Origin: Rhizobium subbaraonis
Lineage (GTDB): Bacteria > Pseudomonadota > Alphaproteobacteria > Rhizobiales > Rhizobiaceae
Reading direction: 5' to 3'
DNA length: 64,000 nucleotides
NCBI RefSeq assembly: GCF_900220975.1
Contig: NZ_OBQD01000010.1
Span: forward strand, 1 to 64,000
The translations under genes were made by a program, and so were the position numbers. Shown piece after piece: positions 2,311-33,432 of this stretch; within the stretch, counting starts at the first letter, position 1, and each line of letters starts with the position of its first letter. Under the pieces are notes generated by a model, which was not told the origin of the DNA, ran no database searches, and was given only the letters and a program-made list of their open reading frames with translations.

Positions 2311-2562
2311 TCACGTAGGCCCGCATGCCAATCGAGAAGGAAAACGGAAGCGCCCGGCGGGCATCGAGGTCCGCCGTCCGCCGGGCGCCGGCTTCCGCGC
2401 CAAACGCGGGAGCGCACGGAAGAGCAAAGGTTTGGAAAGACGCGCCGGAGCGGCAGGCAACGCCCGCCAGCTCCGGCACGAAGATGCAAGGCGGCTGGGA
2501 GGAGCGCTCCAGAGGGGAACTGCGCCTTGCAGAAATGAGACGTGCGAGAGGGCTGCTTTCAT
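2311..2562 (-). CDS. Doubtful small ORF coupled to the Cro-like gene
   Basis: 83 codons beginning with an ATG at 2562 that overlaps the TGA of the Cro-like gene (ATGA), the same coupling used throughout this phage operon. Against it: the translation is rich in Ser, Arg, Ala and Pro, as expected from an out-of-frame reading of GC-rich DNA, and shows no domain. If it is not a gene, 2271-2558 is simply untranslated leader between the Cro-like gene and the next gene; I see no other feature there. Confidence 0.25.
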   Translation of the reverse strand: MKAALSHVSFLQGAVPLWSAPPSRLASSCRSWRALPAAPARLSKPLLFRALPRLARKPAPGGRRTSMPAGRFRFPSRLACGPT

Positions 2563-2768
2563 TCGGCCGCCTCTTCGAAGACCAAACCATCTTCCCATGG
2601 GAGCTCACGCTCCAACGCGGCTTTTCGGATAGCCCGAATGTCGTCGAGAGATGGCGAAACGCCATTCTCCCAACGCGAGACCGTCGCCTGGGTCACACCG
2701 GCGATTTCAGCCATCTCGGCTTGGGTGACCCTGAACACTTTTGTTCGGATAAGCTTCAACGTGCACAT
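2559..2768 (-). CDS. Cro-like XRE-family repressor
   Basis: 69 residues, nearly all of which is a Cro/CI-type helix-turn-helix: QAEMAEIAGVTQATVSRWEN is the helix-turn-helix with the usual Ala-Gly turn and Ser/Arg/Trp recognition residues. It is divergent from the S24 repressor gene at 2861, with 92 bp of operator-rich DNA between them, so it occupies the place of cro in a lambdoid immunity region. The predicted promoter (-10 at 2775-2780, -35 at 2797-2802) places the transcription start on or next to the ATG at 2766-2768, so the mRNA may be leaderless. Confidence 0.82.
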   Translation of the reverse strand: MCTLKLIRTKVFRVTQAEMAEIAGVTQATVSRWENGVSPSLDDIRAIRKAALERELPWEDGLVFEEAAE

Positions 2769-2774
2769 GCGCGG

Positions 2775-2825
2775 ATAATATGCGCAAACGGATTATCTGC
2801 AAGCGGATTTTATCCGGGAACGGAT
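2775..2825. promoter_or_regulatory. Right operator: three repressor dyads and the leftward (cro) promoter
   Basis: Three 14-bp sites fit ATNCG-N4-CGNAT or differ at one position: 2780-2793 (ATGCG/CGGAT), 2795-2808 (ATCTG/CGGAT) and 2812-2825 (ATCCG/CGGAT, a perfect dyad). They are spaced 15 and 17 bp start to start. On the minus strand a promoter can be read through the first two: -35 TTGCAG (2797-2802), 16-bp spacer, -10 TATTAT (2775-2780), directing the Cro-like gene. Matching sites lie on the far side of the repressor gene, so these are the most likely binding sites of the CI-like and Cro-like proteins. Confidence 0.75.
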
Positions 2826-2860
2826 TTTTCTTCTTCGCCTTCTCGTCTTAGCGTGACGCC

Positions 2861-3499
2861 ATGATCAAGATTGCCGATAAAATCCGCGCGATTATGGCTG
2901 CCACTGGCAAGACACAGATGCAGCTCGCCGAAGAGCTTAACGTTTCGCAGTCAACAGTGAACCGCTGGCTTGGCTCGGCTGAACCGGAAGGACATCGCCG
3001 AGACGCGATCAACGAGCTGTATGAGACGCTCGTCCAAAAGCAGCACGCGACAGATGAGGGAACGGAGATTCCCGTCATGGGCTTCATAGGAGCTGGCGCG
3101 GAAATAATGCCTGAATTCGAGCAGGTGCCGCCGGATGGCATCTCTCACGTGATCGTCCCATTCCCCTTGCCAGCCGAGATGATTGCATTTGAAGTCCGCG
3201 GAGATTCAATGCTTCCAGTCTATAAGGACGGGCATGTAATTGTCTGCTACCGGGAGCAAAAGCGTCCGATTGAGGCCTTCTACGGGGAAGACGCGGCCGT
3301 GAGAACATCCGACGGGCGTCGGTTTATCAAGACGATCATGCGAGGAAACCCAGGCATCAATCTGATGTCGTGGAATGCCGCCCCTATCGAGAACGTGAGC
3401 CTTGAGTGGATAGGTGAAATTTTCGCCACTCTTCCGCGCAACGCGCTAAAGTCGATCGAGCGCAAGGGCGGAATCCAAGGGCGCCTTAAGTTGGCATAG
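2861..3499 (+). CDS. CI-type phage repressor with S24 (LexA-like) autopeptidase domain
   Basis: 212 residues. Residues 5-40 form an XRE helix-turn-helix (TQMQLAEELNVSQSTVNRW). The C-terminal half is an S24 peptidase: Ser116 in RGDSMLP and Lys157 in RFIKTIM form the catalytic dyad, and GFIGAGAE (A78-G79) is a plausible self-cleavage site. This is the architecture of lysogeny repressors that self-cleave when RecA filaments form, so induction by DNA damage is expected. It lies between two clusters of matching operators, as cI does in lambda. A dedicated promoter is not obvious; it must start within 2809-2860, so the dyad at 2812-2825 may control it. Confidence 0.9.
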   Translation: MIKIADKIRAIMAATGKTQMQLAEELNVSQSTVNRWLGSAEPEGHRRDAINELYETLVQKQHATDEGTEIPVMGFIGAGAEIMPEFEQVPPDGISHVIVPFPLPAEMIAFEVRGDSMLPVYKDGHVIVCYREQKRPIEAFYGEDAAVRTSDGRRFIKTIMRGNPGINLMSWNAAPIENVSLEWIGEIFATLPRNALKSIERKGGIQGRLKLA

Positions 3500-3542
3500 C
3501 GCGCCCGGCGCGATATTGGGCACAAAGGAATGCGCAACCGAT

Positions 3543-3593
3543 ATCCGCTTGCGCATTTTTTTATGTTGACGAATATCCGTTTGCGCATATTAT
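3543..3593 (+). promoter_or_regulatory. Second operator cluster and rightward early promoter
   Basis: Two dyads match those on the other side of the repressor gene: 3543-3556 (ATCCG-N4-CGCAT) and 3575-3588 (ATCCG-N4-CGCAT). A 19-bp block at 3575-3593 is the exact reverse complement of 2775-2793. A strong promoter overlaps: -35 TTGACG (3566-3571), 16-bp spacer, -10 TATTAT (3588-3593), with the second operator filling the spacer, so bound repressor would block it. The promoter points at the rightward gene chain beginning at 3693. Half-sites (ATGCG) at 3530-3534 and 3592-3596 flank it. Confidence 0.75.
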
Positions 3594-3692
3594 GCGTCTC
3601 GTTCAGGCCGTGAGCAGGGCCGCCGCGTCTCCTCCTCCCAGGCGGCGGCCCACCCTTCCCGGCCTCATTCACCCCAACAATGGAGAATGACG

Positions 3693-3878
3693 ATGCAGAC
3701 CACACGCACCGCAAAAGAGAAGGCCCGCATTACCGCCATCGCTCGCGACCTCGTCGATATCGGCGACGGCGCGATCGCCAGGGATCTCATCCGCCGCGGC
3801 CACTCCCCGCAAGACATCGAGAAGTTCGGCGAGGAGGCCATGGCCGAGGCCGCCAACATCTTCGCCCGCGCAGCCTGA
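3693..3878 (+). CDS. Small phage protein, first gene of rightward early operon
   Basis: About 61 residues. An ATG at 3687 is possible, but GGAG at 3682-3685 is only one base from it and seven bases from the ATG at 3693, so 3693 is preferred. The protein is helical and charged (basic N-terminus, acidic Ala-rich C-terminus), with no recognised domain and no membrane segment. It is about 100 bp downstream of the operator-controlled promoter and leads the rightward chain. Function unknown. Confidence 0.6.
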   Translation: MQTTRTAKEKARITAIARDLVDIGDGAIARDLIRRGHSPQDIEKFGEEAMAEAANIFARAA

Positions 3879-6939: not shown

Positions 6940-7378
6940 TGCAAACCCCAGCGTCAATCGCTATCTCAAAGATAAGGCTATGGACCATATCGACCATGCG
7001 CTGGGCCGCCCGGTCGAGCCACTGGCCCCCACTTTCCGGAACCACTTCGCGACTGACGCGACCGGACAGCAAGCCGCGGACTTTTTCGCATCTCCTTACT
7101 GGGAGCCGGCCGGCCGTACAGGCGACATGGCTTTCTTCGCTGTGAACGAGGAGGGACGCCGCGCACTTTCCGCCCACCTGAAGGCGATCGGCGATCCGCA
7201 CCGACCCTACGCCGTCACCTATGAAGGCACGACCTCGATCGTCCCGGCCAAGTCTGCAAGCGCAGCGAAGTACGCCCTCTATCTCCAGATCAGCGACTGC
7301 TTCTGCGATCTCCGCTTCCGTGACTTCGTCGGGAAAACCCGAGCCGTCCTCGCCGCCAGGAGCAACGTCTATGGCTGA
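6932..7378 (+). CDS. Hypothetical phage protein
   Basis: 148 residues from an ATG at 6932 overlapping the end of the preceding gene by eight bases. The C-terminal part (YAVTYEGTTSIVPAKSASAA, then KYALYLQISDCFCDLRFRDF) resembles the small alpha/beta phage proteins that accompany Gp37/Gp68 genes. Its stop overlaps the start of the DUF5131 gene at 7371. No domain could be named with confidence. Confidence 0.6.
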   Translation: MSNANPSVNRYLKDKAMDHIDHALGRPVEPLAPTFRNHFATDATGQQAADFFASPYWEPAGRTGDMAFFAVNEEGRRALSAHLKAIGDPHRPYAVTYEGTTSIVPAKSASAAKYALYLQISDCFCDLRFRDFVGKTRAVLAARSNVYG

Positions 7379-8288
7379 CAACACCAAGATCGAATGGACC
7401 GACGCCACCTGGAACCCGATCACCGGCTGTTCCATCGTCTCCCCCGGCTGCACCAATTGCTACGCCATGAAGCTCGCCGGCACGCGCCTTCGCCATCACC
7501 CGAGCCGCACCGGCCTGACGAAGGACAGCAAGGCCGGCCCCGTCTGGACCGGCGAAGTCCGCTTCAACCGCGAATGGCTGGACCAGCCCCTGCGCTGGAA
7601 ACGCCCGCGCATGATCTTCGTCTGCGCCCATGGCGATCTCTTCGCCGAAGGCGTGCCCGACGAATGGATTGACCAGATCTTCGCCGTGATGGCGCTCTGC
7701 CCGCAGCACACCTTCCAGGTGCTGACGAAGCGGCCGGAGCGCATGCGGGGATATCTCTACGGCGACAGTGCACGCCAGAGAGTGGCATGGGCGGAAGCGG
7801 CGTGCGCGATGAACCGCTTTGCTCCGGATTGGCGGAATGAAGACATCCACGGCAGACATCGTAGTCTCGTAATGGCCGCAGGAATGGAATGGCCACTGCC
7901 AAATGTCTGGCTCGGCGCATCGGTCGAGGATCAGAAGCGCGCGGATGAGCGCCTGCCCCTCCTGCGCGAGACACCGGCGCAAGTCCGCTGGACGTCCGCA
8001 GAACCCTTGCTCGGGTCGCTCGACCTGTCCCGCCACATAGACATACTCGACTGGGTCGTCGTCGGAGGAGAGAGCGGCCACGGCGCCCGGCCGATGCAGC
8101 CGGAATGGGCCGAGAGCCTGCGCGACCAGTGCGCCGCAGCCGGCGTACCCTTCCTGTTCAAGCAGTGGGGATCGCACAAGCAGACGTCCGACTGCAACGG
8201 CCGCTACATGATCCCGGCCACCAAGAAGGAAGCCGGCCGCCTGCTGGATGGCATCGAGCACAACGGTTTCCCCGAGGTGCGCCGATGA
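7371..8288 (+). CDS. Phage Gp37/Gp68 family protein (DUF5131)
   Basis: 305 residues. The N-terminus is diagnostic of the phage Gp37/Gp68 family: KIEWTDATWNPITGC, then SPGCTNCYAM, followed by RMIFVCAHGDLFAE, FQVLTKRPERM and the C-terminal VVVGGESGHGARP and PFLFKQWG blocks. The conserved C-x2-C-Y suggests a metal or Fe-S site and a distant radical-SAM-like TIM barrel. It is common in phages and mobile elements of Proteobacteria; its biochemical role is not established. The gene overlaps both neighbours. Confidence 0.9.
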   Translation: MADNTKIEWTDATWNPITGCSIVSPGCTNCYAMKLAGTRLRHHPSRTGLTKDSKAGPVWTGEVRFNREWLDQPLRWKRPRMIFVCAHGDLFAEGVPDEWIDQIFAVMALCPQHTFQVLTKRPERMRGYLYGDSARQRVAWAEAACAMNRFAPDWRNEDIHGRHRSLVMAAGMEWPLPNVWLGASVEDQKRADERLPLLRETPAQVRWTSAEPLLGSLDLSRHIDILDWVVVGGESGHGARPMQPEWAESLRDQCAAAGVPFLFKQWGSHKQTSDCNGRYMIPATKKEAGRLLDGIEHNGFPEVRR

Positions 8289-9501: not shown

Positions 9502-9716
9502 GCCGTCGCCCTCCCGTCGTCACGGAAAAGCAGATCCGCGAAGGCATGGCCACGCTTGCACGCATCATGCAGGAGCATCCGAACGGAGAGAAGTTCTGGC
9601 CGCTGTTCGAGCGTCTGGAACGCGAACTTGCCCTATGCCAGAGCAAGAAGTCCCGCCTTGCCGCAGCACTGGCATTCACGCAAGAATCGACGGATCGTAG
9701 CGAAGCGCGATTTTAA
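9498..9716 (+). CDS. Small phage protein, last gene of the rightward operon in view
   Basis: 72 residues from the ATG at 9498; GGAGG at 9485-9489 is eight bases upstream, which favours it over the ATG at 9483. Mostly helical (EKQIREGMATLARIMQEHPN, then EKFWPLFERLERELALCQSK), with a coiled-coil flavour. Its 3' end overlaps the 3' end of the convergent integrase gene by 41 bases, so the operon and the integrase converge here. Confidence 0.55.
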   Translation: MSRRPPVVTEKQIREGMATLARIMQEHPNGEKFWPLFERLERELALCQSKKSRLAAALAFTQESTDRSEARF

Positions 9717-11022
9717 GCATCTTGTCGCGGCGCCAGGACAGCGCGCCGCCGTCGCCATACTCCGGCCGGTCGGTGTCATGGCCCAAGATGCGCCGGCGGA
9801 ATTCGTCATCGAAGCCAGCCTCCAGCATCCGCTTTTCATATGTATGCCGCAGCGAGTAAGCGCGATGATGTTTCGAAGGCAGAAGCTTGCGGTCTTTCAA
9901 ATGCTTCATCACCGCAGCTGAAAAATTGGTTTCCTTGTCCGCATAGCGCGGGAAGCCTTTCGGAGCCAGCTTCATCGCCTCCAGGGATACCCCGACCAGC
10001 GGGATATCGCGCACGCTGTTCTGCGTCTTCACCTTGCGATCCGGACGATAGATGATCTCGAGATAGGGCACCGGCGCATCAAGGTGGATCTGCTCGGGGC
10101 GCAGGTTGCAGATCTCGGACGGCCGGCACCCGGTCTCGATCATCGTCAGCAGGATGAGCTTCGCTTCCCGGTTCAGGTTCTTGAACGCCCCGGCGGAGAG
10201 GAATTTCTCCTCGACGAAGGAAGCGTCGAAGGGCTTGACCTTCAGCCGCAGGGCCTTGGGATTGCTGAAGGACAGGCCGTCGAAGGGGTTCTTGATGTCG
10301 AGCGCGTGGTAGCGCGTATATTCGCGAAAGAGCTTGCGGAGGTCGCCGAAGCGGCGGTTGGCCGTGCTGCCGGACACACCTTCGTTCTCGATCCGGCGCA
10401 TCCACCATCCATGGAACTTGATCGCATCCGCACGCGTGATGTCGAGAAGCGGCTTGTTGCTGACTGCCTCGACGAACCGGTCGACCGCCGTCAACTTCAC
10501 CTTGCGCCAGTTGGCGAGCTGTGCCGGGCTCATTCCCCGCGTCTCGTCCTTCCCGATCTCGTCGAGGTAGGTATCCATGGCGCGGCGCACAGTCAGGGCA
10601 GGAAGCTCCTCACCGCCCAACAGGGCGTCCTGATCGCGAGCCGAAGAGTTCCCCGCGACCGATATCCGCCGCAGGATCTCGGCCGTGTCGCCGCCTTCAG
10701 CGAGATCCGCAACCGCCTTGTATTCGAAGCCGAGGGCTATCGCTCTGGCCTTCGCAGCCTGGTATCGCGCCTGCGATCCGTTGTCCGGATGCTCAAGAGA
10801 CAGCCCCTGCCACAAAAGCTCGTCGGCCCGCTCCAGCGAATCACGGCGAAGCTGCGCAACATCGAGCGAAGAGGTCTTGAGTGAGATCTGGATCGTGCCG
10901 CGCCCGTCGATATGGGCGAAATGCGCCGGCACCCGGCGGACATAATGCCACTTCGCCCCCCGCGCCTTGAGATAGCGCATAGGATCGCGGGCGACCGTCA
11001 GTTGCTTTGCCTTGCGCGCCAC
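9676..11022 (-). CDS. Phage-type tyrosine recombinase (integrase)
   Basis: About 448 residues from a GTG at 11022 preceded by GGAGAGG six bases upstream; ATGs at 11055 and 10980 are alternatives. The N-terminus (YLKARGAKWHYVRRVPAHFA) resembles the DUF6538 arm-type domain of rhizobial integrases, followed by a core-binding domain. Catalytic residues fit: Arg300 (TGCRPSEI), Lys332 (RKVKTQ), Arg392 (YSLRHT), His415 (LGHDTD) and Tyr422 (PEYGDG). The gene start faces a tRNA-Leu 3' end about 120 bp away, the usual site of action. It would catalyse insertion and excision of the element that extends left of this point. Confidence 0.92.
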   Translation of the reverse strand: MARKAKQLTVARDPMRYLKARGAKWHYVRRVPAHFAHIDGRGTIQISLKTSSLDVAQLRRDSLERADELLWQGLSLEHPDNGSQARYQAAKARAIALGFEYKAVADLAEGGDTAEILRRISVAGNSSARDQDALLGGEELPALTVRRAMDTYLDEIGKDETRGMSPAQLANWRKVKLTAVDRFVEAVSNKPLLDITRADAIKFHGWWMRRIENEGVSGSTANRRFGDLRKLFREYTRYHALDIKNPFDGLSFSNPKALRLKVKPFDASFVEEKFLSAGAFKNLNREAKLILLTMIETGCRPSEICNLRPEQIHLDAPVPYLEIIYRPDRKVKTQNSVRDIPLVGVSLEAMKLAPKGFPRYADKETNFSAAVMKHLKDRKLLPSKHHRAYSLRHTYEKRMLEAGFDDEFRRRILGHDTDRPEYGDGGALSWRRDKMLKIALRYDPSILA

Positions 11023-11103
11023 CGCGTGCCTCTCCAAAAGAGCGTTGCGGTGCATTCTGTAGTGCAAATTTTGGGAGGTCGTCAATTCCCCACGAGGGGG
11101 ATG

Positions 11104-11127
11104 ATTGTTTTACGTAGGAAAAACAAT
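11104..11127. repeat. Inverted repeat between integrase and tRNA-Leu
   Basis: Eight-base arms ATTGTTTT (11104-11111) and AAAACAAT (11120-11127) separated by eight bases. Read on the minus strand it follows the tRNA-Leu 3' end by 20 bases and could be its terminator. Alternatively, because the attachment junction should be at the tRNA end, it belongs to the element side and could be an arm site for integrase or excisionase. The sequence cannot distinguish these. Confidence 0.4.
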
Positions 11128-11146
11128 TGCTTGACCAAAAGCCAAA

Positions 11147-11231
11147 TGGTGCGGTCGAGAAGACTCGAACTTCCACGGGTTGCCCCACAGCGACCTCAAC
11201 GCTGCGCGTCTACCAATTCCGCCACGACCGC
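11147..11231 (-). tRNA. tRNA-Leu (anticodon GAG)
   Basis: On the minus strand the 85-nt sequence folds as a class II tRNA: acceptor arms GCGGTCG and CGACCGC followed by an encoded ACCA, D-arm with GGTAGAC, anticodon stem CAGCG/CGCTG enclosing loop TTGAGGT (anticodon GAG, reading CUC), a long variable arm, and a T-arm with GTTCGAG. The 3' end at 11147 faces the integrase, so the tRNA 3' half is the probable attachment site of the prophage. The tRNA is intact, so integration regenerated its end. Confidence 0.93.
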
Positions 11232-11424
11232 ATCGTGGTAGGTGCCGACTTGCGCCGACGGGGGTGCATGTAGCAAAAGCATTTTGGGTGCACAAGGCCA
11301 TTGCGACAGAAATCTGACGAGAAAAACAACAATTTCAACAGACCCTGTGAATGGCTCGTTTCCCCCCTGAAATCCTTGCATCATCCCGCCTATATTGGCA
11401 GAGAAAGGTCGAAGGGATTGCCAT

Positions 11425-32190: not shown

Positions 32191-33432
32191 TCAGGCGAAG
32201 AACTTGCGGGCATGGTCGAGCGCATCGGCCAGAACATCGACCTCGGCGCGGGTGTTGTACATGCCGAACGATGCGCGGCATGTGGAGGTCACGCCAAAGC
32301 GTTTCAAGAGCGGCTGGGCGCAATGGGTACCGGCGCGGACGGCGACACCTGCCCGGTCGATCACCATCGACACGTCATGGGCATGGATACCCTCCAGCTC
32401 GAAGGAGAAGATCGAGCCCTTGCCGGGCGCGGTCCCGAACATCTTCAGGGAATTGATGGACGACAGGCGTTCGTGAGCGTAGGCCGAAAGGTCCGCCTCG
32501 TGCGCCGAGATCGCCGCACGCCCGATCTTTTCCATGTAGTCGAGCGCGTAGCCGAGCCCGATCGCCTGCACAATCGGCGGCGTGCCGGCCTCGAAGCGGT
32601 GCGGCGGGTCATTGTAGGTGACGATGTCTTCCGTCACTTCCACGATCATCTCACCGCCGCCCTGGAACGGCCGCATCTGGCGTAGCCGCTCCTTCTTGCC
32701 GTACAGCACGCCGATGCCGGAAGGCCCGTAGAGCTTGTGGCCGGTCATCACGTACCAGTCGCAGTCGATGTCCTGCACGTCCACCGGCAGATGCACGGCC
32801 CCTTGCGAACCATCGACCAGCACCGGGATGCCGCGCTCGCGGGCGATCGCGCAGATCTCCTTCACCGGCACGATGGTGCCGAGCGCGTTCGACATGTGCG
32901 TGATCGCGATCAGCTTCGTCTTTTCGGTGAGGCATTTGACGAAGTCCTCGACGTGGAACGCGCCCGTATCGTCCACCGGTGCCCAGACGAGCTTCGCACC
33001 CTGTCGTTCGCGGATGAAATGCCAGGGAACGATGTTGGAATGATGCTCCATGATCGAGATGACGATCTCGTCGCCTTCCCCGATGTTCGGCATGCCATAT
33101 CCGTACGCCACCGTGTTGATCGCCTCTGTCGAGGACTTGGTGAAGACGATATCGTCAACCGAGGGTGCATTCAGGAACCGCCGCACCTTTTCGCGCGCGG
33201 CTTCATAGGCATCGGTTGCCGCGTTCGAGAGGAAATGCAGGCCGCGATGGACGTTCGCATACTCGTTCGAATAGGCATGCGCCACCGCATCGATCACGAC
33301 CTGCGGCTTCTGCGCGGAGGCGCCGTTGTCGAGATAGACCAGCGGCTTGCCGTAGACTTCGCGCGACAGGATCGGAAAATCCCGGCGGATCGCCTCGACG
33401 TCATAGCTGGAAACCGGCTTGATCTGGTTCAT
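32191..33432 (-). CDS. sufS: Cysteine desulfurase SufS
   Basis: 413 residues, type II (SufS-like) cysteine desulfurase with PLP lysine Lys233 in MTGHKLYGPSGIGVLYG and active-site Cys371 in RAGTHCAQPLLKRF, typical of the short SufS loop. It mobilises sulfur from cysteine for cluster building on SufBCD. No SufE gene is in the operon. The ATG at 33432 is the first codon after the sufD stop at 33446 and starts MNQIKPVSSYDVEAIRRDFP, as expected. This is one of two desulfurases in this operon. Confidence 0.95.
   Translation of the reverse strand: MNQIKPVSSYDVEAIRRDFPILSREVYGKPLVYLDNGASAQKPQVVIDAVAHAYSNEYANVHRGLHFLSNAATDAYEAAREKVRRFLNAPSVDDIVFTKSSTEAINTVAYGYGMPNIGEGDEIVISIMEHHSNIVPWHFIRERQGAKLVWAPVDDTGAFHVEDFVKCLTEKTKLIAITHMSNALGTIVPVKEICAIARERGIPVLVDGSQGAVHLPVDVQDIDCDWYVMTGHKLYGPSGIGVLYGKKERLRQMRPFQGGGEMIVEVTEDIVTYNDPPHRFEAGTPPIVQAIGLGYALDYMEKIGRAAISAHEADLSAYAHERLSSINSLKMFGTAPGKGSIFSFELEGIHAHDVSMVIDRAGVAVRAGTHCAQPLLKRFGVTSTCRASFGMYNTRAEVDVLADALDHARKFFA

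Follow-up and report, generated by a model that had tools for sequence, protein, structure and literature searches.

A putative lambda-like prophage immunity region in Rhizobium subbaraonis with paired operator dyads on both sides of a CI-type repressor gene

Results

Gene content of the region

The window, a stretch of 64,000 nucleotides of Rhizobium subbaraonis DNA, carries two divergent regulatory genes near its start. The rightward gene (2861-3499, forward strand) encodes a CI-type repressor of 212 aa with an N-terminal helix-turn-helix domain, whose recognition helix reads QSTVNRW, and a C-terminal Peptidase_S24 domain (E 2.3e-10; 40.6 bits, above the curated cut-off of 23.3). It also matches phrog_4 (E 5.1e-21). 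Residues G79, S116 and K157 are invariant across 26 repressor sequences, and A78 is almost so; by comparison with LexA and lambda CI, we take A78-G79 to be the cleavage site and S116 and K157 to be the catalytic residues. The leftward gene (2559-2768, reverse strand) encodes a Cro-like protein of 69 aa (HTH_3, E 4.1e-10) with a similar recognition helix, QATVSRW.

Leftward, cro is followed by a CII-like regulator gene and then by a methyltransferase gene (phrog_799). The CII-like gene is placed at 1737-2270 on the reverse strand, with a provisional start; its part 1737-2219 matches phrog_101, CII-like activator (E 8.6e-15), and scores slightly under the cut-off of 26 bits for the Pfam family Phage_CP76 (E 2.6e-5, 24.6 bits). 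Further leftward genes and the left end of the prophage are out of view because the window starts at the start of its contig (C55). To the right, a tyrosine integrase gene (9676-11085, reverse strand; Phage_integrase, E 5.1e-9 on 9676-11031) adjoins a tRNA-Leu (GAG) gene, the two together spanning 9676-11231, and this is the probable right end of the prophage. A search of the genome for an attachment-site duplicate of 11120-11235 found no full copy besides the segment itself; there were two partial matches, one of 76% over about 77 bases and one of 89% over about 36. The reading frame at 7371-8288 resembles, by eye, the Gp37/Gp68-type gene (p08) of Sinorhizobium phage phi3LM21.

Operator dyads and outward promoters

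A sequence-only reading of this DNA had proposed that five copies of a 14-bp operator flank the repressor gene. A scan of the window for the dyad ATNCG-N4-CGNAT finds four of the five as exact matches, none of them assigned a strand. Two lie between the divergent genes, in the region called OR here: the predicted outer operator at 2780-2793, ATGCGCAAACGGAT, falls within the spacer of the leftward promoter PR, and the predicted inner operator at 2812-2825, ATCCGGGAACGGAT, is centred 42.5 bp ahead of the cI start codon. The other two lie past the end of cI, in OL, with the predicted inner operator at 3543-3556, ATCCGCTTGCGCAT, and the predicted outer operator at 3575-3588, ATCCGTTTGCGCAT, the latter lying both within the spacer of the rightward promoter PL and within an inverted 19-bp copy. 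The fifth proposed site, the middle dyad at 2795-2808, has one mismatch and overlaps the PR -35; it is a doubtful operator, given its distribution in relatives (see below). The 19-bp repeat described in that reading is exact: 2775-2793 is the reverse complement of 3575-3593, and no other exact inverted 19-mer with disjoint arms occurs in the 64-kb window.

The window contains one further exact dyad, at 33277-33290. Dyads with at most one mismatch number 38 in the whole window against a shuffle mean of 44, so it is the clustering, rather than the dyad word itself, that is unusual. The genome-wide search that the sequence-only reading had suggested as a check gives 130 exact dyads in 6,576,489 bases (18 for the reversed control pattern), which corresponds to 0.016 expected in 809 bp where four are seen. 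The Poisson probability of at least four, about 3e-9, is post hoc, because the dyad pattern was derived from these very sites; the evidence independent of it is the conservation of the dyads in relatives.

Both outward promoters named in the earlier reading are present as described. PL, TTGACG-16-TATTAT, occupies 3566-3593 on the forward strand and agrees with the consensus at 10 of 12 positions. PR, TTGCAG-16-TATTAT, runs from 2802 to 2775 on the reverse strand, with its -35 at 2797-2802, a 16-bp spacer and its -10 at 2775-2780. A promoter consensus scan of 2500-3720 returned PL as its sole hit and did not list PR; with a shuffle mean of 0.5 hits, neither outward promoter stands out by this measure. 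A similar promoter is found at OL in most relatives.

Site pairs in related loci

We fetched 113 relatives, 33 of them loci from viral contigs and 80 from bacterial genomes (the best 80 of 96). The analysis of site pairs covers 16 non-duplicate loci, the window included, whose repressors carry either the helix QSTVNRW (8) or QATVSRW (8); the named genome loci among them come from Rhizobium, Phyllobacterium, Mesorhizobium and unclassified Rhizobiales. OR dyads were sought solely at -49 +-4 and -82 +-5 from the cI ATG, and at those positions a pair precedes the repressor gene in 16 of 16 loci, each dyad with at most one mismatch. OR spacing is 32-33 bp in 15 loci and 28 bp in L042.

An OL pair lies downstream of cI in 15 of the 16 loci. 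Both sites are exact in 13, and the pair has one mismatch in L009 and two in L004, so that 14 pairs have at most one mismatch; the background for single dyads at that stringency is 57 in 110,885 positions. Chance pairs appear at two mismatches, so in L004 the TTGACG and the -10 are part of the case for OL. The pair falls within 3 kb of cI in 14 loci and about 3.1 kb beyond it in L011; L044 has no OL pair in the 3 kb downstream of cI. Spacing at OL is 31-32 bp, with 34 bp in L042.

The control was a search of the loci for dyad pairs spaced 28-36 bp, with no more than one mismatch summed over both sites. Within the 16 loci they occur exclusively at OR and OL, and there are none in the 94 other fetched loci (649,735 bp); when two mismatches are allowed, four pairs appear in 2 of the 94. 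The duplicate loci L017, L040 and L041 have OR and OL pairs as well. L047, which has a similar helix and an uncertain start, has no such pair anywhere. The loci L060-L117 (58, nearly all Bradyrhizobium by title) entered this pair control only. Many of these Bradyrhizobium genomes carry a gene that matches the repressor, often just in its S24 half.

L015 has an extra OL pair, with three successive dyads 636-708 from the cI start at spacings of 28 and 31 bp, and its duplicate L017 likewise has three downstream dyads.

Operator words and the recognition helix

Repressors of other types, alike in the S24 half and different in the helix, are flanked by other repeated words, for example ATCCGTCAAACGGAT, ACCCCAAAATGGGG and TGGAATTAAATTC. 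In a swap test, the OR region of each locus was matched to the 2 kb downstream in the same locus, and the best 16-mer match was set against the best ones downstream in loci of other operator types. Across 36 loci, which include the other repressor types, the own match beat all others in 28. Several of the shared words contain -10 letters besides operator letters. The eight failures are L011, L044, L039, L008, L022, L034, L045 and L056; the OL of L011 falls outside the 2-kb limit, L044 is the locus in which no OL pair was seen in the 3 kb, and in L039 and L008 the own match was equalled or beaten once each. The check that downstream copies lie at promoters covered the ATNCG class.

The swap test and a palindrome profile used 35 relatives plus the window, among which some close kin remain (L002/L038, L011/L044, L019/L021). 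Excluded were near-duplicates, judged by eye (L014, L017, L025, L033, L040, L041, L046, L049), and 12 loci with an unclear repressor start or N-terminus (L018, L028-L032, L047, L053-L055, L058, L059). Operator types and start codons were likewise assigned by eye. The palindrome profile, an unbiased one over the 36 loci aligned at the cI start, gave no clean peak, its best column having a mean of 2.92 of 7 pairs against an overall mean of 1.76; we take this to reflect operator length and centre varying among repressor types.

Within the ATNCG class, the third base of the half-site differs with the helix. For QSTVNRW it is G in 30 and C in 30 of 60 half-sites, with no A; for QATVSRW it is A in 38, G in 22, T in 3 and C in 1 of 64. 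These counts are not mutually independent, and Fisher P values computed from them are too small.

Transcript starts

The window cro ATG begins 6 nt past the PR -10, and the distance is 6-9 nt in 16 of 16 loci, with in-frame alternative starts further upstream in L043 and L009. The cro transcript is therefore probably leaderless. On the other side, a weak -10-like hexamer, TAGCGT (2849-2854, forward strand), stands 6 nt before the cI ATG, and we propose it as part of PRM, the repressor's own promoter, which has no good -35. Such a hexamer is found 6-7 nt ahead of the cI ATG in 15 of 16 loci by a loose criterion (second base A and sixth base T in a hexamer that starts at -13 to -11) that is likewise satisfied at -39/-38, within the operator, in 14 of 16. 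Five Shine-Dalgarno-like words, sought at -18 to -5 of cI, were found in none of the 16 loci. With a -10-like hexamer close to the ATG and no Shine-Dalgarno word, the cI transcript is probably leaderless too.

In lambda, OR2 is centred at -42.5 relative to PRM. The centre of the inner OR site in the window has the same position relative to the cI start, which by analogy suggests that this is an activator site for PRM through which the repressor would activate its own synthesis.

A predicted terminator at OL

An intrinsic cI terminator is predicted at 3527-3562 on the forward strand, with its 3' arm and T-run overlapping the OL inner operator. The segment 3526-3565 folds at -15.3 kcal/mol (z -3.7 against shuffles, a test applied to the window hairpin alone). 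A hairpin of -8 kcal/mol or better occupies this place in 7 of 14 loci (window, L005, L006, L007, L015, L038, L043); it is near -6 kcal/mol in L003 and L004, and weaker or absent in L002, L009, L010, L039 and L042. A terminator scan missed the 3527-3562 hairpin, whose loop probably exceeds the length that the scan accepts. Its one hit, against a shuffle mean of 1.3, was the OR inner dyad at 2812-2825 with its T-run.

The repressor-proximal OL site could be a combined operator and terminator, its right half and the T-run after it serving as the 3' arm of the hairpin that ends the repressor transcript. Bound repressor could then alter termination or block polymerase, so that transcripts begun at PRM would run on into the PL operon to an extent set by the repressor level. 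This would make a second feedback loop, with no counterpart known to us in lambda. What by eye appears to be a separate upstream hairpin with a T-run in L006 counts against a terminator that overlaps the operator, and we regard the read-through loop as rather improbable.

Just past the PL start lies a strong leader hairpin (3617-3651) with a 10-bp stem and no T-run, in a segment (3600-3690) that folds at -42.6 kcal/mol (z -4.2); it is a possible attenuator or antitermination site.

Discussion

A model of the switch and its alternatives

From the gene order, the sites with their spacing and conservation, the difference in operators between helix types and the S24 residues observed here, we infer a switch of the following kind. 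Dimers of CI would bind, presumably cooperatively, to a pair of 14-bp operators at either end of the cI gene; the two operators of a pair lie 32 bp from each other, some three helical turns. Bound at the outer operator, which lies between -35 and -10, CI would shut the outward early promoter on either side in the lysogen. PR would drive a leaderless cro message and then the CII-like gene leftward, and PL the rightward early genes. From the inner OR site, 42.5 bp ahead of the start of its leaderless message, the repressor would activate PRM. The Cro-like protein, whose helix is similar, would compete with CI for these operators. After DNA damage, RecA-stimulated self-cleavage at Ala78-Gly79 would open both operons. 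The core of this model, paired operators that silence two outward promoters, we hold to be very likely. The full chain, self-activation included, as the working of a prophage immunity region with relatives in Rhizobium, Neorhizobium, Phyllobacterium and Mesorhizobium, is in our judgement probable. The lambda-like OL/OR logic put forward in the sequence-only reading gains weight from the relatives, where the pairs flank the repressor gene, are absent elsewhere in the loci, and change their words with the helix.

Two alternatives concern the number and use of the OR sites. A two-site switch of the phage 16-3 type would do without self-activation: CI would only repress PR and PL, and the repressor promoter would be constitutive and shut by Cro. 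The annotation of two OL and two OR sites in 16-3 fits such an arrangement, as does the window's repressor promoter, over which the best candidate for a third operator, near -27, has three mismatches. Yet the start of the inner OR dyad is nearly fixed relative to the cI ATG, at -49 or -50 in all 16 loci, whereas that of the outer one ranges between -77 and -83, and a weak -10 without a clear -35 is what an activated promoter would be expected to have; we therefore think a switch without self-activation unlikely. In a three-site OR of the lambda type, otherwise compatible with our model, the middle dyad at 2795-2808 would be a true operator in the window's subgroup. It is within one mismatch not only in the window but also in L002 and L038, where chance would give about 0.07-0.17 such cases in 16 loci. 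Against this, it has at least two mismatches in 13 of 16 loci, the letters kept across loci are the TTGC of the PR -35, and other loci (4 of 16: L005, L009, L038 and L043) carry instead, near -27 from cI, a third site that is exact or one mismatch away; this is where OR3 of lambda lies, over the repressor promoter. With the middle dyad in 3 of 16 loci and the -27 site in 4 of 16, the common unit is two sites per side, and the four exact ones of the five operators first proposed form these pairs; a functional middle site has perhaps the same modest chance as a switch without self-activation.

Two further alternatives question the assignment of the sites to CI. Were the cluster a chance grouping of a common genomic word, one could point to the abundance of the dyad in the genome (130 against 18 for the reversed pattern), to a pattern chosen after the fact, and to window near-matches that are not in excess; the like placement of the pairs in relatives, together with the absence of any such pair elsewhere in the 16 loci or in the 94 others, makes this hardly credible. 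Nor do we give much room to sites that serve the Cro-like protein or a host factor and not CI. The recognition helix of Cro is indeed similar to that of CI, but half-sites of QSTVNRW repressors differ in their third base from those of QATVSRW repressors, whereas 14 of the 16 loci have QA[TS]VSRW as the helix of Cro (the exceptions being L003 and L043), and we judge this quite unlikely, if less so than a chance grouping.

Under the model of paired CI operators, a rhizobial repressor family gains an operator assignment from sequence alone, through a layout that stays the same while the helix and the flanking operators differ together. If this is true, superinfection immunity groups would be predictable from sequence.

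Comparison with known systems

Lambda has divergent cI and cro genes, OL and OR around cI, outward early promoters and three sites per operator region; its inner OR site lies at about -42 from the repressor start, and its cI transcript is leaderless. The window shares with lambda the divergent pair with repeated operator-like sites between the genes, a second operator region past cI with the same site sequence and an outward early promoter, an inner OR site at about -42 and, probably, a leaderless cI transcript. Its operator regions each have two conserved sites where those of lambda have three, and its operators have another sequence and a wider spacing. In the window only 43 bp separate cI from OL, so no rex genes lie there.

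The telomere phages N15, phiKO2 and PY54 have a lambda-like order, as in the window; unlike the window, their prophages are linear plasmids. In PMC4488713, the cI and cro transcripts of PY54 are described as leaderless, and the OL sites of N15 are placed upstream of repA, which differs from the window.

Searches for closer relatives among phages and in the literature gave the following. The best repressor match among phage records, that of Microcystis phage Mwe-Yong1 (48%), was set aside, as it has no annotated cro nearby and a transposase gene close by. A solved-structure profile search with query A1 returned nothing at E 0.001. Among the literature matches listed, judged by titles and abstract openings, none was recognised as describing the ATNCG operator family. 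The sole phage record with similar DNA at the immunity region is that of Sinorhizobium phage phi3LM21 (MF614628), with 76.6% DNA identity over 12% of a 3-kb query, around the CII-like gene. Its order, a methyltransferase gene, two hypothetical genes, a Cro-like gene and a divergent CI gene, is similar to that of the window, but its CI is related to the window CI only through a short weak match in the S24 part (E 5e-4). In the main text of PMC5537653 on phi3LM21, the word 'operator' occurs 0 times.

The closest annotated system found is phage 16-3 (NC_011103). Its record places OL1, OL2, PL, OR1, OR2, Pc and Pr around the repressor gene in a layout that matches the window, with PL pointing outward along the direction of the repressor gene and Pr divergent, and its repressor combines HTH and Peptidase_S24 domains, like that of the window. 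Section 2.5 of PMC12429752 likewise gives 16-3 two OL and two OR operators. Since the 16-3 record annotates two sites on each side, the paired-operator layout is not new outside lambda. What the two share is this two-and-two arrangement; a homologous repressor and ACAA operators are lacking in the window. The 16-3 operators, of 12-14 bp, start with ACAA and are spaced 17 bp (OL) and 26 bp (OR), as against 32 bp in the window, and the two repressors have no significant pairwise match (best E 0.068).

The same section 2.5 (2025) reports that phiLM21-like Sinorhizobium prophages lack the exact operators of lambda and of 16-3, and that preliminary induction of these prophages by UV or mitomycin C failed. 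It leaves the operators of the phiLM21-like prophages open, and a search for paired dyads of the kind described here is a direct way to look for them.
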